NCBI GenBank assembly: GCA_947489665.1
Contig: CANLEH010000001.1
Span: 964,501 to 1,028,500, forward strand
From: an uncultured Roseicyclus sp.
GTDB taxonomy: Bacteria; Pseudomonadota; Alphaproteobacteria; Rhodobacterales; Rhodobacteraceae
DNA: 64,000 nucleotides
Reading direction: 5' to 3'
Shown piece after piece: positions 52,391 through 62,098 of the stretch; position 1 is the stretch's first letter; each line of letters opens with the position of its first letter. The position numbers and the translations under genes are program-made. A model generated the notes under the pieces. The model saw only the letters and a program-made list of their open reading frames with translations, searched no databases and was not told the origin of the DNA.

Positions 52391-53371
52391 ATGGAAACCC
52401 TGGCGCCCCCGGAGCCAATGGCACTCAACCGGTTTTCCACCGATTGGTTGCCTACACCACACCGCCTAGAGATTTGGCGCGAGGTGTTCGGGCGCGAAGT
52501 CATCCGCCTCGACCTCGCGCCGCTGAATGACCAACCCGTCCACTGCGATGTGACGTTTCGCGAAATCGACCGCATGACGCTCAGCCTTGGCTGCGTCTCG
52601 GCGATCTCCTGTGACCGGACCCATGCACTCTTGACCGATGGCAATGACGATATCGTTCTGATGATCCCCGTTGAGGGGACAATCACGCTTGAAGTGCGCG
52701 GGCGTGAACTGACCGCTGGCATGGGCGATGTGCTGGTGCGCCGTTCGGACGATGCCTGCACCACCTATTCGTCCAATGGCCGTTACATGACGCTAACGCT
52801 CCCGGTGCGCGAGTTGGAGCGGCGGGTCGCCAGGATCGACCAACTGACCATGGCCGTCCTGCCCGCCGCCTCCGAAGGCGTGCGCCTGCTGGCGCAATAT
52901 GCCCGGATGATCCTGTTCGATACCGATGTCACGCCCGAGATGTCGCGTATGATCCACGCCCATATTGCAGACATCGCGGCGCTGGCCATTGGCGCGCAGC
53001 GCGACGCATGGCACCACGCCGAACAGCGCGGCATGAAGGCCACGCGGCTGCGCGCGATCCACGCCGCCATACGGGCCGAGGCCGCGGGTGAAGGCTTCTC
53101 GATCAACACGCTTGCCCGTCAGAGCAGGATTTCACCGGGCTATATCCGCAAACTTCTGGCGGGCGAGGGGACGAGCTTCACTGCACTCGTGCTGGAACGT
53201 CGCCTGCAATTGGCCCATGACGCGCTGGTTGATCCGGCGCTGGCCACCCGCACAATCAGCGCCATCGCGCTGGATTGCGGCTTCGGTGATGTGAGCTATT
53301 TCAACCGCGCCTTCCGCAAACGGTACGACGCGACGCCGGGCGATGTTCGGGCAAACGCGCTGCGGTGTTGA
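52391..53371 (+). CDS. AraC-family transcriptional regulator
   Basis: 326 residues. The C terminus has the double helix-turn-helix of AraC ('GFSINTLARQSRISPGYIRKLLAGEGTSF' and 'RTISAIALDCGFGDVSYFNRAFRKRYDATPGDVR'). The N terminus is a cupin-like sensor of the AraC-binding-like type ('LGCVSAISCDRTHALLTDGNDDIVLMIPVEGTITLEVRGRELTAGMGDVLVRRSDD'). The effector and target are unknown; it is downstream of the PAN genes and upstream of the outer membrane gene. AAGGAAGG precedes the ATG. Confidence 0.88.
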   Translation: METLAPPEPMALNRFSTDWLPTPHRLEIWREVFGREVIRLDLAPLNDQPVHCDVTFREIDRMTLSLGCVSAISCDRTHALLTDGNDDIVLMIPVEGTITLEVRGRELTAGMGDVLVRRSDDACTTYSSNGRYMTLTLPVRELERRVARIDQLTMAVLPAASEGVRLLAQYARMILFDTDVTPEMSRMIHAHIADIAALAIGAQRDAWHHAEQRGMKATRLRAIHAAIRAEAAGEGFSINTLARQSRISPGYIRKLLAGEGTSFTALVLERRLQLAHDALVDPALATRTISAIALDCGFGDVSYFNRAFRKRYDATPGDVRANALRC

Positions 53372-53495
53372 ACGGAGCGCATGGTCGACAGAACGTGCCC
53401 GATTAAAATCCGCAAGCCAATTCGATTGCAAAAAATTCCGCTCTTTGTCACGGTTTGTTCCAACGCCAGATCTCAAAAAAGGGCGAGATGGTCCG

Positions 53496-53999
53496 ATGTG
53501 CCGATTGCTGATCGCAAGTGCCCTGCTGTTTCTCTCTCCTGCTTTCGCGCAAGCGCAGGACAGCCAGCGTTACGCCGCATTGATCCTCGGCTCAGTCCAC
53601 TTTGGCGTGGACCTCAACGACTTTAATCCCGGTCTGCTGATCGGCCATCGCTGGCAGCGCGGGGAGGGCGGTTTTGAATACCACCTCGAAGGGGGTGTGT
53701 TCTACAACAGCTATGAAGAGGTCGCGCCTATCCTGATGGGCGGTGTCTCTTATCAGTTGGCCGAGCTTGGGTCGTTCAACCTGCGCGGTGGGGTCAGCGC
53801 TGGGACCGGATATTATGGTGCCTTGGCCCCAACGCTTGAGCGTGACTATGGCATCCCGAATGTCGAAGGGTTCATCCCGCTCGTCGCGGCCTCGCTTGCG
53901 CTGCGCGATACGCGCCGGCCGGTGGAATATCGTCTGACCGCATTGCCCGGCGACGCGGGCACAGGCGTTCTCAACCTGTCGGTCGCTTTCGATTTCTGA
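53496..53999 (+). CDS. Putative outer-membrane beta-barrel protein
   Basis: 167 residues. A signal peptide ('MCRLLIASALLFLSPAFAQA') precedes alternating hydrophobic strands ('LLIGHRWQRGEGGFEYHLEGGVFYNS', 'SFNLRGGVSAGTGYYG') and the protein ends with 'LSVAFDF', a C-terminal Phe typical of BAM-recognised barrels. An eight-strand barrel of small porin or lipid-A-modifying type is possible; no family was recognised. The start at the signal peptide is chosen. Confidence 0.6.
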   Translation: MCRLLIASALLFLSPAFAQAQDSQRYAALILGSVHFGVDLNDFNPGLLIGHRWQRGEGGFEYHLEGGVFYNSYEEVAPILMGGVSYQLAELGSFNLRGGVSAGTGYYGALAPTLERDYGIPNVEGFIPLVAASLALRDTRRPVEYRLTALPGDAGTGVLNLSVAFDF

Positions 54000-54009
54000 G
54001 CGGTAGATG

Positions 54010-54124
54010 TGACCATCTGGTCAGGTTTGCTCTGCTGGCGGGCAGCACGGCCAAACTCTGACCATTTGGACGCATTTTTCCGGGAAATCGTGACCAGATG
54101 GACGCAACTGTGACCAACCGGTCA
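54010..54124. repeat. Four TGACCA-N2-TGGTCA-type repeats
   Basis: Four imperfect palindromes in 115 bases: TGACCATCTGGTCA (54010), TGACCATTTGGAC (54059), TGACCAGATGGAC (54091) and TGACCAACCGGTCA (54111). The first and last share longer flanks (TCAGG then GTTTGC), and the middle two share GGACGC. They lie between two convergent gene ends, so a promoter role is not obvious. Confidence 0.7.
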
Positions 54125-54173: not shown

Positions 54174-56228
54174 TCAGGCCGCGATCAGGCCCATGCTCTC
54201 CAGTTTCAAAAGCACCTGTTGCGCGCAATAGTCGACGTCAACACTCTCGGTATCGACCACCAGTTCGGCGTTTGTGGGGGCCTCGTAAGGATCTGAAATT
54301 CCTGTGAATTCCTTGATCTTGCCTTCCCGCGCCAGCTTGTAGAGGCCCTTGCGGTCGCGCCGTTCGCATTCCTCAATCGACGTCGCGACATGGACTTCCA
54401 CAAACGCGCCGAACTGCTCAATCTCTTCGCGAACAGCCCGCCGCGTCGCCGTGTAAGGCGCAATCGGCGCACAGATCGCAATGCCACCATTTTTGGTGAT
54501 TTCCGAGGCGACATATCCGATGCGACGAATGTTTAAGTCCCTGTGTTCTTTGGAGAATCCAAGCTCACTCGACAGGTTCTTGCGCACCACGTCCCCGTCC
54601 AGCAACGTCACCGGGCGGCCGCCCTGTTCCATCAGTTTGACCATGATGGCGTTGGCGATCGTCGATTTCCCCGAGCCCGAAAGACCGGTGAAAAAGACCG
54701 TGAATCCTTGCTGCGAGCGCGGCGGCGAGGTGCGGCGCAGTTCCTTGACCACCTCGGGGAATGAAAACCATTCCGGGATCTCCAGACCCTCACGCAGGCG
54801 GCGGCGCAGCTCTGTCCCGGAAATGTTTAGAATCGTTACGTTTTCCCGATCCGCGATCTCGTCATTCGGCTCATACTGAGCGCGCTCCTGCACATAAACC
54901 ATGTGCTTGAAGTCGACCATTTCGATGCCGATTTCGTCTTGATGCTGCCGGAACAGGTCCTGCGCATCATACGGCCCGTAAAAGTCCTCGCCCGCCGAAT
55001 TCTTGCCCGGCCCGGCATGGTCGCGGCCCACGATCATATGGGTACAGCCATGATTTCGCCGGATAATTCCGTGCCAGACCGCTTCGCGCGGACCGGCCAT
55101 GCGCATGGCGAGGTTCAGAAGGCTCATCGTTGTAGTGGCCGCCGGATACTTATCCAAAACAGCCTCATAGCAGCGCACGCGGGTGAAATGGTCCACATCT
55201 CCGGGCTTCGTCATGCCCACAACGGGATGGATCAGCAAGTTGGCCTGCGCCTCTTTCGCGGCACGGAACGTCAGTTCTTGATGCGCGCGGTGCAGCGGGT
55301 TGCGGGTCTGAAACGCGACAACGCGGCGCCAGCCGAGCTTGCGGAAATAGGCGCGCAACTCGTTGGGCGTGTCGCGACGGGCGCGGAAATCGTAGTGGAC
55401 CGGCTGCTGGATGCCGGTGATGGCACCACCCAGATAGACCGGGCCAGCGACGTTGTGCAGGTAATTCACGGCCGGATGGGCGATGTCGTCAGCACCGTAA
55501 ACCTTGACCGCTTCGCGCGCCTTGTCGGGGCTCCACTTGTCCGAGATCGACAGGATGGCGAGGATGACGCCCTCGGCATCGCGCAGCGCGATGTCCTGGC
55601 CTTCTTCGATGCTCGCCGCAAATGCCTCCGACACATCCAACGTGATGGGCATCGGCCAAAGCGCGCCGTCGGCGGTGCGCATATTTTCAACGACGCCGTC
55701 GTAATCTTCCTTTCCCATGAACCCCTTAAGCGGGTTGAACCCGCCGTTCATGAGCAGTTCGAGGTCGCAGACCTGGCGCTGGGTCAGATCCCAACTTGGA
55801 AGCTCCGCGGCCTCCATCTTCAGTTTCTGAGCGCTGTCGTACGAGACATAGAGTTCCGGGATCGGAGCGTGGAGCGGCATGGCCATGGTTGCGGTCCTTT
55901 TGGCGGGAGAGAGCGTGGCGCCGGTGCCGGTTAACTCGGCATGGAGGGCGTTATATTCAGCGCGTTTTCGCGCGAGGAAATCATCGACAAGGCGCGCTTT
56001 TTCGGCGGCCCCTTTCTGGGTGAGGGCGTAGGCGACCTTCTGACGCCGATCCGTGCTGTCACGGTCAACGATCTGGACCAGCCCATCTTGTGTGGCAGCA
56101 CGTAACACCGTGTTCAGGCCGCCAAGGCTGATGCCAAGGGCCTGCGCCGTTGCGCGTTGCGATCCCTGCGGTGCGACATCTATCTGACGCAACAACCGGA
56201 ACAGCAGATCTGTGTCAGGCATCGACAT
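54174..56228 (-). CDS. MarR-like winged helix fused to bifunctional ATP sulfurylase/APS kinase
   Basis: 684 residues. Residues 1-100 are a MarR-type winged helix of the 'EPS-associated' kind ('LLFRLLRQIDVAPQGSQRATAQALGISLGGLN', then 'QKGAAEKARLVDDFLARKRAEYNALH'). From residue about 120 follow an ATP sulfurylase ('FQTRNPLHRAHQEL', 'IVGRDHAGPG') and an APS kinase ('FTGLSGSGKSTIANAI', 'LLDGDVVRKNL', 'ISDPYEAP'). Together they make PAPS from sulfate and two ATP. No stop separates the parts. An internal ATG (Met115, 55886) has AAAAGGA upstream, so free enzyme may also be made. Divergent from a sulfotransferase, with two operator-like palindromes between. Confidence 0.88.
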   Translation of the reverse strand: MSMPDTDLLFRLLRQIDVAPQGSQRATAQALGISLGGLNTVLRAATQDGLVQIVDRDSTDRRQKVAYALTQKGAAEKARLVDDFLARKRAEYNALHAELTGTGATLSPAKRTATMAMPLHAPIPELYVSYDSAQKLKMEAAELPSWDLTQRQVCDLELLMNGGFNPLKGFMGKEDYDGVVENMRTADGALWPMPITLDVSEAFAASIEEGQDIALRDAEGVILAILSISDKWSPDKAREAVKVYGADDIAHPAVNYLHNVAGPVYLGGAITGIQQPVHYDFRARRDTPNELRAYFRKLGWRRVVAFQTRNPLHRAHQELTFRAAKEAQANLLIHPVVGMTKPGDVDHFTRVRCYEAVLDKYPAATTTMSLLNLAMRMAGPREAVWHGIIRRNHGCTHMIVGRDHAGPGKNSAGEDFYGPYDAQDLFRQHQDEIGIEMVDFKHMVYVQERAQYEPNDEIADRENVTILNISGTELRRRLREGLEIPEWFSFPEVVKELRRTSPPRSQQGFTVFFTGLSGSGKSTIANAIMVKLMEQGGRPVTLLDGDVVRKNLSSELGFSKEHRDLNIRRIGYVASEITKNGGIAICAPIAPYTATRRAVREEIEQFGAFVEVHVATSIEECERRDRKGLYKLAREGKIKEFTGISDPYEAPTNAELVVDTESVDVDYCAQQVLLKLESMGLIAA

Positions 56229-56256
56229 GCAGGGACGTCCCAAACAAGGCAAAAGG

Positions 56257-56325
56257 TTTGTTCATGAATGAACAAATATACAAAACCTATCCCTGAGGGA
56301 AGATGTTTGTTCAAGTTTGAACGAT
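56257..56325. promoter_or_regulatory. Two MarR-type operators in the divergent PAPS-synthase/sulfotransferase promoter
   Basis: A perfect palindrome TTTGTTCATGAATGAACAAA (56257-56276; 9-base arms, 2-base centre) lies 29 bases before the start of the fusion gene. A second, TTTGTTCAAGTTTGAACGAT (56306-56325), keeps GTTCAA-GT-TTGAAC and lies 49 bases away centre to centre. A weaker third copy may begin at 56325. The shape and size fit a MarR dimer, so the winged helix encoded next door is the obvious candidate to bind. Confidence 0.65.
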
Positions 56326-56449
56326 TTGTTTTCGATTTGAGAACACTCGCCAAAATTCGTGGCGAATTTGCCGCAAATCCCGCCAAGGACGGCATTTTTC
56401 CCGGCGCTTGCCCATGCTTTGTTAACGGCCTTCAGCGATAGCTTCCCAA

Positions 56450-57505
56450 ATGATTGAGGAACTGATCCTTCATATTGGCATGCCGAAGACCGGCACCACA
56501 TCCATCCAGCGTGCGTTGAGTGCAGCGCGTGGTGGTCGGGATTGGACCTACCTTGACCTCAACCCACCGCATTCCGCCAACCCGGTGATCCTAAGGGCCC
56601 ATGGCGGCGTCTCACCCGTAGCGACACATCCCGGGCCGCGTGGCGCGCAATCTCCGGCCGCGGCGTGGGCACATCTGGAAAACGCACTCAAGGCGGTTCG
56701 AACGCCCCGCGCGATCCTGTCGGCGGAGGCCATGGTTCGGCTTCCACCCGCCGCGATTGCCAATTTGCTCGCGCATCTTTCCACGCATGCAAAGACGTTG
56801 AGTGCGATTGCGTATATCAGGCCGCCTTATTCCTTCATCACCTCCTACACTCAGCAATTCTACAAGACGTCCTACGCGCCTTTGGCTGATGTGATCCGGC
56901 GCGCACACCGCCCGATCGCCGCCGACATCACGATGTGGGATCATGCGTTGGGCCAGGAAAATGTGAGGCTGTTTCCCTTTGCACGCGACACCTTTGCCGC
57001 GGGGTCCGTCGTTCAGCACTTTGCAGAGGCCCTTGATCTGGGTGCCTTGCCGGAACATCCAACCAACGCGAATGTAAGCCTTGGGGATGAGGCCACGCGC
57101 CTGCTGGTCCTGTTTCGGCGCTACAATGCGATGCGGCATCCCAGGGACGGGCGCATATTGCATCGCTTGGCGAAGGTGCAAAGGCGGCCGTTTCAGCTTC
57201 ACCCCGGTTGTCTGCTGGACGCCGCCGATATGGCGGAAGCGACGCAGGATTGGGCGAAATCCCGGATGGGATGGTCGATCAAAGAACCCCAGCCGGAACA
57301 TCATAACCGCGCTGTTCGATGTGATGTGGATTTCGAAGACCTGCTGCCCGACAGCCTGAACTGGCTGGCGGAGCAGACTGGTTGGTCAGCCAGCGCATTG
57401 CGGGCGGACCCGAGTGCCGTCGCGGATGCCGTGCGCACTCTGCGCGATCGCCCAACAGGCCAAAGCAGGGTGGGCCGCATTGCCAAACGTCTGCGTTTGG
57501 CGTGA
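56450..57505 (+). CDS. Sulfotransferase-like protein
   Basis: 351 residues. 'LILHIGMPKTGTTSIQRAL' is the PAPS-binding 5'-phosphosulfate loop, and 'RTPRAILSAEAMVR' may be the 3'-phosphate-binding part. It would transfer sulfate from PAPS to a hydroxyl on a sugar or surface polymer. The start is weak in ribosome-binding signal. It is divergent from the PAPS synthase, which would make its donor, so the two form a probable sulfation module. Confidence 0.82.
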   Translation: MIEELILHIGMPKTGTTSIQRALSAARGGRDWTYLDLNPPHSANPVILRAHGGVSPVATHPGPRGAQSPAAAWAHLENALKAVRTPRAILSAEAMVRLPPAAIANLLAHLSTHAKTLSAIAYIRPPYSFITSYTQQFYKTSYAPLADVIRRAHRPIAADITMWDHALGQENVRLFPFARDTFAAGSVVQHFAEALDLGALPEHPTNANVSLGDEATRLLVLFRRYNAMRHPRDGRILHRLAKVQRRPFQLHPGCLLDAADMAEATQDWAKSRMGWSIKEPQPEHHNRAVRCDVDFEDLLPDSLNWLAEQTGWSASALRADPSAVADAVRTLRDRPTGQSRVGRIAKRLRLA

Positions 57506-60088: not shown

Positions 60089-62098
60089 ATGCCACCTGTT
60101 GATCTAACGGCGCTTTACCGGGACGGTTTGGCGCATCAGCAAGCTGGTCGGGTGGCAGAGGCTGTGGCGATCTATGACCACATTCTGTCGCTTAAACCCG
60201 ACATTGCGGAAGTGCTGTTCCAAAAGGGGCGCTGCCTGTCTGACCAGCCCGCCGAGGCGGAGGGGCTGTTTCGCAAGGCGTTGAAGCTGAAGCCGAAAGA
60301 GCCCGCCATCTGGCAAGGCCTGCACGCGGTGCTGACGGGCCCGGCGCGCGCAAAGTTGGAAGCGCAAGCGCACAAGGCTGGCATTGTGGTCGGATCCGAG
60401 AAGGACATGGCCAAGGTGCAACGGCTTTGGCGCAATGGCGAGGAGGCCGCGGCCGAGGCGGAGGCACTGCGTCTGACGAAGGCCGCTCCACAAGCCTTCT
60501 GGCCGGTCTATACGCTTGGCCTGATCCGTGAGGGTGCTGCAGCCGTCGCACCGCTGGAAGCGGCGCATGCGCGCGATCCATCCCATGTCGGGGCGCGATT
60601 GGCCCTGGCGCGGGCGGCGCTTGCGGCGGGGCAGATCGGGCGGGTTGAAACGCTGCTGTTCGCACCTGATTTGCCCCCGGCGGCCTTGGTCATCCGGGCG
60701 CAAATGCTGCGTGAAACCGCGCTGCCGGATGTCGCAGCCGACCTGTTGGCCGATGCGCACCCCGAAGACAAGGCATGGCAGGTAGAGCTTGCTCTGTGCT
60801 CGGCGGCAGCCTCACGGGGGGACGCCGCGAAGGCCGCTCTTTCACGGGCCATCTCCGCAAGCGCGCCGCGTATCGCGACGACGCGCCGTGTCGCGATGCT
60901 GGCCGAAGCAGCAGGCGACGTTGCGACGGCGGAGTCCCTGATCGAAGCCGCGGCGGATCATGCGCCCAATGCCCTGATCCTCACCCACCGCGCCCAACTG
61001 CGCCAATCCGCGGGGGATCTTGCGGGGGCAGAGGCGGATCTGGATGCGGCATTGGCGTTGGATGCTACAAATGGGGAGGCGTTTCGCGCTTTTGCCAATG
61101 GGCGAAAGGTAACGTCTGACGCGCCGCTTGTTGGGCGGCTGGAACAAGCGCTGGCTGCGCCGCACGTCGCAGCGAGCGATCGAGCGGGACTGCTGTTCGC
61201 CGCCGCAAAATGTGCAGCGGACCTTGGTCGGCACGATCAGGTCATGGACCTCCTTCACCGGGCCAACAGGTTGACGGCAAAGGCCTTTCCTTATGGGTTT
61301 GAAGCCGATCTCGCCGCGGCAAAGGCCCTTGTTGCCGACTGGCACGCGCTTGAACCGATCAGGCCTGACGGGCCCACGGCGCCCGTGGTTTTTGTCACCG
61401 GCCTGCCGCGTTCCGGCACCACGCTGGTTGAAACCATTCTCGCTGCCCACCCGCAGGTGGGCGCTGGGGGGGAAATGGCGTTTCTCGGCCAAGCCCTTGC
61501 CCCGACCATGGATTTGCTCCGCCGTGAAGGACGGGCGGACGCCGAAATGCTGACCCAAGCGGGCAACCGCTACCTCACCTTGGCGGGGCGTTGCACCGGA
61601 CAACCGGGCGTCATTGTGGACAAGGCAATCTCCACTTTTTCGCGCATGGGGCATGCCTTGCGCGCGCTGCCGGGCGCCCATTTTGTGCATGTCACCCGAG
61701 ACCCGCGTGACGTTGGGCTGTCGCTTTACCGCAATCGGTTCCCGGATGGTCTGCACCGCTACGCCTACGATCTGGCCGCGATGGGGCGCTACATTCGCCT
61801 GCATGACGCGATCACTGATTTTTGGAGCCGCGCGTTGCCCAACCGCGTCTACAGGATTTCGTACGAGGCGCTGACGGCGGACCCTGAGGTTCAGATCCGC
61901 GCGCTCTTGAAAGCTGTCAATTTGCCATGGGACCCGGCATGCCTTGCACCGCAAGACAGCGACCGTCGCATCCAGACGCTCAGCTTTGCACAAGCGCGTG
62001 AACCGATTGGCAGGGCCGCCGTTGCCGGGTGGGAGCGCCACGCAGATGAACTTGCGCCGCTGATCAAGGCCCTAGAAGAGCCCGTCGACTTGAATTAA
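60089..62098 (+). CDS. TPR-containing sulfotransferase
   Basis: 669 residues. The N-terminal 400 residues are tetratricopeptide-like helices ('AVAIYDHILSLKPDIAEVLFQKGRCLSDQPAEAEGLFRKALKLKPKEP'), and the C-terminal part is a sulfotransferase with the PAPS loop 'VFVTGLPRSGTTLVETILAAHPQVGAGGEM' near 435 and 'ARFVHVTRDPRDVGLSLYRNRF'-type 3'-phosphate region as 'FVHVTRDPRDVGLSLYR'. This architecture is common in alphaproteobacteria and is often annotated as tyrosyl or glycan sulfotransferase. Acceptor unknown. A terminator follows. Confidence 0.9.
   Translation: MPPVDLTALYRDGLAHQQAGRVAEAVAIYDHILSLKPDIAEVLFQKGRCLSDQPAEAEGLFRKALKLKPKEPAIWQGLHAVLTGPARAKLEAQAHKAGIVVGSEKDMAKVQRLWRNGEEAAAEAEALRLTKAAPQAFWPVYTLGLIREGAAAVAPLEAAHARDPSHVGARLALARAALAAGQIGRVETLLFAPDLPPAALVIRAQMLRETALPDVAADLLADAHPEDKAWQVELALCSAAASRGDAAKAALSRAISASAPRIATTRRVAMLAEAAGDVATAESLIEAAADHAPNALILTHRAQLRQSAGDLAGAEADLDAALALDATNGEAFRAFANGRKVTSDAPLVGRLEQALAAPHVAASDRAGLLFAAAKCAADLGRHDQVMDLLHRANRLTAKAFPYGFEADLAAAKALVADWHALEPIRPDGPTAPVVFVTGLPRSGTTLVETILAAHPQVGAGGEMAFLGQALAPTMDLLRREGRADAEMLTQAGNRYLTLAGRCTGQPGVIVDKAISTFSRMGHALRALPGAHFVHVTRDPRDVGLSLYRNRFPDGLHRYAYDLAAMGRYIRLHDAITDFWSRALPNRVYRISYEALTADPEVQIRALLKAVNLPWDPACLAPQDSDRRIQTLSFAQAREPIGRAAVAGWERHADELAPLIKALEEPVDLN

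Follow-up and report, generated by a model that had tools for sequence, protein, structure and literature searches.

A 64,000-nucleotide stretch of an uncultured Roseicyclus genome (contig CANLEH010000001.1, positions 964,501 to 1,028,500; hereafter the window) carries a minus-strand gene that joins a MarR-like winged helix in frame to a complete 3'-phosphoadenosine 5'-phosphosulfate (PAPS) synthase, the bifunctional enzyme composed of ATP sulfurylase and adenosine 5'-phosphosulfate (APS) kinase. Judged from the sequences of this gene and its relatives, it likely encodes an autoregulatory DNA-binding enzyme, a 'trigger enzyme', and does so from two translation starts. A palindrome conserved upstream of the gene suggests that the fused enzyme probably controls its own production, and a ribosome-binding-site-like motif with a start codon is conserved in the linker between helix and enzyme.

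The open-frame scan gave 692 stop-free codons on the minus strand (54174-56252), beginning at TTG. The likely start of the fused frame is the ATG at 56228-56226, from which a protein of 684 residues would be made, and 56228 is also where the original prediction, based on the letters of the DNA, had placed the end of the gene. The model for bifunctional ATP sulfurylase/APS kinases, NF004040, aligns with residues 123-691 of the 692-residue frame and scores 1047.5 bits, well above its cut-off of 669, and the Pfam domains PUA_2, ATP-sulfurylase and APS_kinase each pass their cut-offs; with the frame open throughout, the proposal that a MarR-like helix is joined to a PAPS synthase with no stop between them is confirmed. 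The MarR_EPS model TIGR04176 aligned to residues 15-108 at 76.4 bits, under its cut-off of 88, and again stayed under it in a profile search of the window's genome (80.6 bits). Five fused relatives were scanned with the same model, of which three passed (L022, 91.9 bits; L043, 97.8 bits; L038, 89.6 bits) and two failed (L002, 83.0 bits; L065, 82.6 bits). Since the window protein and some relatives lie below the cut-off, the window helix is labelled MarR_EPS-like here. The Pfam family MarR_2 (gathering cut-off 27 bits) gave a divided result, with the window (17.5 bits) and L022 (19.8 bits) below and L043 (29.4 bits) and a divergent fusion, L089 (31.7 bits), above.

Modelled alone with AlphaFold2, the helix domain reached a mean predicted local distance difference test score (pLDDT) of 85.4, with helices at residues 5-17, 23-30 and 34-46, strands at 50-54 and 64-68, and a long helix at 70-99. 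MarR proteins made up most of its top Foldseek matches among solved structures (TM-scores of about 0.5-0.6, best E 1.1e-4), and the closest solved relative by sequence was the MarR protein CouR, at an E of only 0.0087. The full-length model was weaker (pLDDT 72.6; predicted template modelling score 0.51), with residues 107-128 below 50, and two modules joined by a flexible linker are a fair reading of it, no more. By sequence and predicted fold, a single chain bears both an enzyme and a DNA-binding domain in the style of a trigger enzyme.

With the first 152 residues as query, a scan of a collection of genomes recovered at least 80 related loci. Among the 80 listed, the complete join was present in 69, the helix was missing from nine, and two were truncated (L012, L073); the fused set used throughout consists of 70 complete genes, namely the 69 relatives and the window, with the two truncated loci excluded. 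The join is open in all 70, the linker between defined columns measures 22 residues in 68 loci and 23 in two, and Nei-Gojobori ratios of nonsynonymous to synonymous substitution (dN/dS) in 16 hand-chosen pairs were 0.00-0.14 for the helix and ranged up to 0.60 for the short linker. On these alignments the helix is under purifying selection across many genera. The original prediction had considered that the fusion might fail through a frameshift or stop at 55886-55930, which is absent from all 70 loci, or because close relatives always keep the two parts as separate genes. This is not so either: across Rhodobacteraceae the fusion is common and retained in many genera, and none of 34 unfused stretches (102,529 bases, with flanks of up to 4 kb) yielded a helix encoded on its own in a profile search that recovered four of four fused controls. 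A frameshift or sequencing artefact is unlikely, given the 70 open frames, the linker of 22-23 residues and the low dN/dS of the helix.

To place the fusion among its relatives, a profile of the helix was searched at E 1e-10 against a family sample of 394 genomes from 393 genera, and it matched in 135 of them. Among the matches listed, 90 scored at least 134 bits, 88 of these in frames of at least 690 residues and two in shorter ones (267 and 601 residues), and 60 more scored at most 106.4 bits in frames of 119-335 residues, representing standalone MarR_EPS genes. Within this listing a clear score gap separates fused from standalone helices, and the fusion-type helix is present in 90 of the 394 family genomes. 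Among the matches listed from a class-level sample of 385 genomes, long frames were confined to the window's genome (G000) and G210, both members of the family. Matches were also obtained in 527 plasmid records; the 12 listed start at residue 109 or later and none covers more than 84%, so that no fusion is found among these.

The fused helix is accompanied by a palindrome, TTCA-N4-TGAA: 69 of the 70 fused loci carry it in the 200 nt preceding the helix, where mononucleotide shuffles predict 0.13, and 12 have two or more sites; the lone fused locus without an exact operator, L063, has a mismatched site. The motif is absent from 142 kb of gene bodies and occurs nine times in 411 kb of flanks of the fused loci. 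The 31 unfused rows, which reduce to 29 distinct ones (L144 duplicates L072, and L141 duplicates L076), have no copy within 500 nt; 34 rows had been given, and L093, L146 and L152 were dropped as their anchor was not recognised. In the window two copies of the longer form stand ahead of the gene (Table 1), both inside the interval 56229-56449 that had been proposed for a gel shift with the palindromes still unnoticed, and the idea of DNA binding at the gene's own promoter fits a palindrome conserved at nearly all fused loci.

Searched exactly, the 14-mer GTTCACGCGTGAAC turns up 24 times in the family sample, in 23 of its 394 genomes, and its reversed control not at all; by comparison of coordinates, 20 of these sites neighbour a fused helix, one a standalone MarR_EPS gene (in G107), and the remaining three lie elsewhere (two in G284, one in G326). 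The window's genome holds GTTCAN4TGAAC at three places, two of them at the fused gene (control, one), and TGTTCAN4TGAACA with at most one mismatch at eight, again two at the fused gene (reversed control, three). Moreover, of the 60 standalone matches listed for the family, 37 genes were re-found, and 16 of these have the palindrome within 250 nt upstream (0.06 expected), while at least seven of its eight letters are present upstream of 23 (2.26 expected); G107 had been preselected for its exact site, which makes 15 of 36 the fairer count. The palindrome is very likely the fused helix's own operator, and the simplest account of these distributions would be that the helix family binds the palindrome and that the fusion acquired helix and operator together. 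When the loci are aligned on the operator, TGNNAT appears directly upstream of it and CTTTG 16 nt before TGNNAT, a promoter-like arrangement in which the operator may cover the transcription start. The third GTTCAN4TGAAC site of the window's genome (G000 C5:272935-272948, L084) lies near open reading frames that, by reading only, have no evident sulfur link; with this as the one further place, a regulon beyond the fused gene was rejected.

A second conserved element lies in the linker, where the sequence AAAAGGACCGCAACCATG holds AGGA at 55898-55895 followed by ATG at 55886-55884. Both fall inside the stretch that had earlier been flagged for a possible stop and were not noticed there. An in-frame AGGA with 8-nt spacing is present in all 70 loci, and 12 nt on from the first base of the AGG stands ATG in 67, GTG in two and ATA in one. 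AGG is otherwise rare, accounting for 87 of 3669 arginine codons in the aligned genes, of which 70 lie in two neighbouring junction columns and only 17 elsewhere. Since AGG is kept at every locus despite synonymous distances of up to about 1.5 in the pairs computed, it appears to be under selection at the nucleotide level, as a ribosome-binding site would need; the column was singled out by inspecting the junction columns rather than by a window scan. In 63 of the 70 loci the duplex energy of the AGGA with the anti-Shine-Dalgarno sequence beats that of the best candidate long-form start. Furthermore, the internal start coincides in position with a start codon of unfused orthologues, many of which have GAGA-like leaders. 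Taken from these alignments, the gene probably yields the plain enzyme as well as the fusion. A programmed frameshift that would free the helix alone was rejected, as no out-of-frame stop at the junction is common to all loci, the commonest (35 of 70) lying at +43 inside the enzyme. The locus with ATA is L063, from an Octadecabacter metagenome-assembled genome, which may be losing operator and internal start together.

Table 1 Features of the fused gene and its upstream region, in window coordinates
Feature	Position	Strand	Basis
Proximal putative operator TGTTCA-N4-TGAACA (TGTTCATGAATGAACA)	56259..56274	.	0 mismatches; 30 nt upstream of long start
Distal putative operator	56308..56323	.	1 mismatch; 49 nt beyond proximal site, upstream
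Long product, winged helix and PAPS synthase, 684 residues	54174..56228	-	Open frame; join in 70/70 complete loci
Predicted winged-helix (MarR_EPS-like) DNA-binding domain	55929..56213	-	TIGR04176, AlphaFold2, Foldseek, dN/dS
Linker of near-constant length holding the internal start	55851..55928	-	70-locus alignment; low pLDDT
Internal AGGA, Shine-Dalgarno-like, including the in-frame AGG arginine codon	55895..55898	-	70/70 loci, 8-nt spacer
Putative short product, PAPS synthase alone, 570 residues from ATG 55886-55884	54174..55886	-	Start codon conserved; unfused counterpart
PUA_2, ATP sulfurylase and APS kinase domains	54252..55865	-	Pfam, NF004040

The comparison of fused with unfused genes bears on how helix and operator came together. 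At 68 of 69 fused loci the fused gene is preceded by trxB in the same orientation, and trxB is present at 10 of 14 unfused loci, some of them short stretches (L072, with 8.1 kb of sequence, has no trxB); as trxB stands beside both kinds, fused and unfused genes are mostly orthologues at one locus. In an enzyme tree of the 70 fused genes, 12 unfused genes and L089 (L093 was dropped, and L074, which ends at a contig edge, was left out), fused and unfused enzymes are interspersed, and a single clade of fused enzymes was rejected by the approximately unbiased test (p-AU 3.5e-5). On supported branches of this tree there are at least four changes between presence and absence of the helix, for which either repeated loss of the helix or transfer of a helix cassette may be responsible. 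The fused helices themselves (42 of the 70, analysed with 37 standalone ones) form one group at 85% in the Shimodaira-Hasegawa-like approximate likelihood ratio test, a value not starred and obtained from few columns. With traits coded by hand, the operator accompanies the helix in four independent tree pairs on starred (supported) branches; nearly all of 200 pairings agree in four of four, and the rest in three of four. Locus L089 (genome G296, 2065-2514) encodes a divergent fusion of MarR_EPS and PAPS synthase whose linker differs (TIGR04176, 65.9 bits); it has two TTCAN4TGAA palindromes at its start and its own AGGA ahead of an internal ATG. It may represent a second, independent fusion origin, with its tree placement unsure.

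Sulfate activation is the entry to both cysteine synthesis and sulfation. In the window's genome the fused gene is the single match to its own enzyme type, a single CysH-type reductase is present, its two cysteine pairs being of the kind that marks APS reductases, and none of six weak CysN matches exceeded the cut-off. With this set of one PAPS synthase, one reductase and no CysN over cut-off, the fused gene probably occupies the point where the routes to cysteine (through APS) and to sulfation (through PAPS) part. A review centred on metazoan enzymes describes APS as inhibiting ATP sulfurylase and stabilising bifunctional PAPS synthases (PMC3734648), which would make APS a natural candidate effector of the fused regulator.

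MarR-superfamily regulators bind palindromes as dimers. In the mechanism we propose, the long form would dimerise through its helix domain, bind the palindromes that cover its promoter and repress transcription, and the internal start would supply helix-free enzyme from the same mRNA. Much of the enzyme would thus be non-repressor, with the amount of repressor governed by mixed oligomers. When the enzyme part binds APS, PAPS or ATP/sulfate, the affinity of the protein for DNA may change, whereby the output of sulfate activation would tune its own synthesis. The full scheme, in which helix-bearing and helix-free PAPS synthase arise from one mRNA, assemble into mixed oligomers and hold the promoter according to APS/PAPS occupancy, the short form acting as a built-in diluter, is offered tentatively, as possible rather than probable.

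The alternatives differ in which of these elements they discard. In one, only the long fusion is made, with autoregulation as proposed and the internal AGGA and ATG unused. In its favour, the AGGA duplex is moderate, and at none of the 70 loci does it rank with the strongest 5% of random positions in the gene; the ATA at the internal start of L063 also suits this view. We nevertheless consider it unlikely, because an AGG retained 70 times out of 70, with 17 others among 3669 arginine codons, looks nucleotide-selected, and because ATG or GTG follows 12 nt on in 69 loci. A plain autogenous repressor, whose long form responds to no metabolite and whose enzyme tether couples repressor to enzyme dose, overlaps with the preferred reading of an autoregulatory enzyme in everything except sensing, and in our estimate is somewhat unlikely. 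It is in keeping with the predicted disorder of the linker (pLDDT below 50) and with the concentration of exact sites at the fused gene (two of three in the window's genome, 20 of the 24 14-mer sites in the family); no counter-evidence emerged, and a monomer model cannot reveal allostery.

The palindrome could also be the target of another protein acting in trans, for example a standalone MarR_EPS regulator, with the fused helix having lost DNA binding. The identical palindrome at 16 of 37 standalone genes would agree with this, but the search of the window's genome gave no MarR_EPS match other than the fused helix, the fused helix is conserved (dN/dS 0.00-0.14), and the palindrome is absent from the 31 unfused rows, and we regard this explanation as improbable. 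Very improbable, in our view, is a purely structural role, in which the helix would aid oligomerisation or folding of the enzyme and not bind DNA. Its predicted long C-terminal helix (model residues 70-99) could pair, and human PAPS synthases are dimers according to PMC6509946, but such a role leaves unexplained both the co-occurring operator and why orthologues beside trxB manage without the helix.

A number of observations weigh against an autoregulatory enzyme with two starts. The fused loci are related, so that 69 of 70 does not amount to 69 independent cases, and a sign test on the four tree pairs, too few for significance, gave p 0.125. Many family members are without the helix, from which it follows that the regulation is dispensable, and the exact palindrome is absent at 21 of the 37 standalone MarR_EPS genes. 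A sigma-70 scan found no promoter, and the preference for repression over activation rests on the putative operator sitting just downstream of TGNNAT. For the internal start, the moderate AGGA duplex has to be set beside a synonymous-conservation scan in which the junction was outside the 12 top windows listed, and beside an unfused row, L153, that also has AGGA ahead of its start. L063 combines ATA at the internal start with its mismatched operator.

Other elements surround the gene. The divergent gene at 56450-57505 (+) lies on the other side of the intergenic DNA that holds both palindromes and scores 19.7 bits against Sulfotransfer_4 (cut-off 22.8); such a sulfotransferase-like gene is present in only three of 69 fused relatives within the flanks examined, and its co-regulation was rejected. 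A TPR-Sulfotransfer_3 protein is encoded near the PAPS synthase at 60089-62098 (+), and 10 of the 69 relatives have one within the same flanks. Two exact copies of the palindrome TGACC-N4-GGTCA (54010-54023 and 54111-54124) lie between the 3' end of the fusion and that of the convergent gene 53343-53999; they may act as terminators or bind a different regulator.

A self-regulating fusion in 90 of 394 family genomes would provide natural pairs for studying how an enzyme turns into its own regulator, such as Jannaschia seohaensis, with the fusion, and J. formosa, without it. For MarR_EPS-type proteins, the analysis also offers a specific motif as a candidate binding site. If true, the two-product reading would describe a regulator-enzyme that carries its own diluter, with the repressor dose set in translation.

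The fusion resembles known trigger enzymes, and we found no description of a helix-PAPS synthase combination in the open-access literature searched, subscription papers being mostly outside the search. The passages found in two of the papers retrieved describe no fusion (PMC10599003, PMC3150298), and those found in a survey of proteobacterial regulons tie Rhodobacterales to neither sulfate nor PAPS (PMC5343134). The enzyme part corresponds to the bifunctional sulfate adenylyltransferase/adenylylsulfate kinase of NF004040; many members of the Rhodobacteraceae have no helix. The helix part is matched over the same region, and at similar size, by the TIGR04176 MarR_EPS regulators, part of which (16 of 37) share the palindrome; these differ in being standalone, in frames of 119-335 residues that reach at most 106.4 bits against the fused profile (60 among the matches listed), and their link to EPS lies in the model's name only. 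The domains and pathway of PutA are unrelated to those of the fused PAPS synthase. Rhodobacter capsulatus belongs to the same family as the window's organism. In passages of PMC6199135, AerR of R. capsulatus is described as giving long and short forms with different roles from one regulatory gene, a precedent for the two products suggested here; in contrast to the fusion, AerR is a cobalamin photoreceptor and not an enzyme, and its short form regulates too (PMC6199135). Parts of PMC6978683 present BirA and the proline dehydrogenase/repressor PutA as enzymes that repress their own operons, as proposed for the fusion. BirA offers a further parallel, since biotin ligases, according to PMC4016012, have a DNA-binding part in group II and none in group I, much as PAPS synthases occur fused and unfused. 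The enzyme is a different one, and the PAPS synthase fusion differs from BirA in having a conserved internal start between helix and enzyme.
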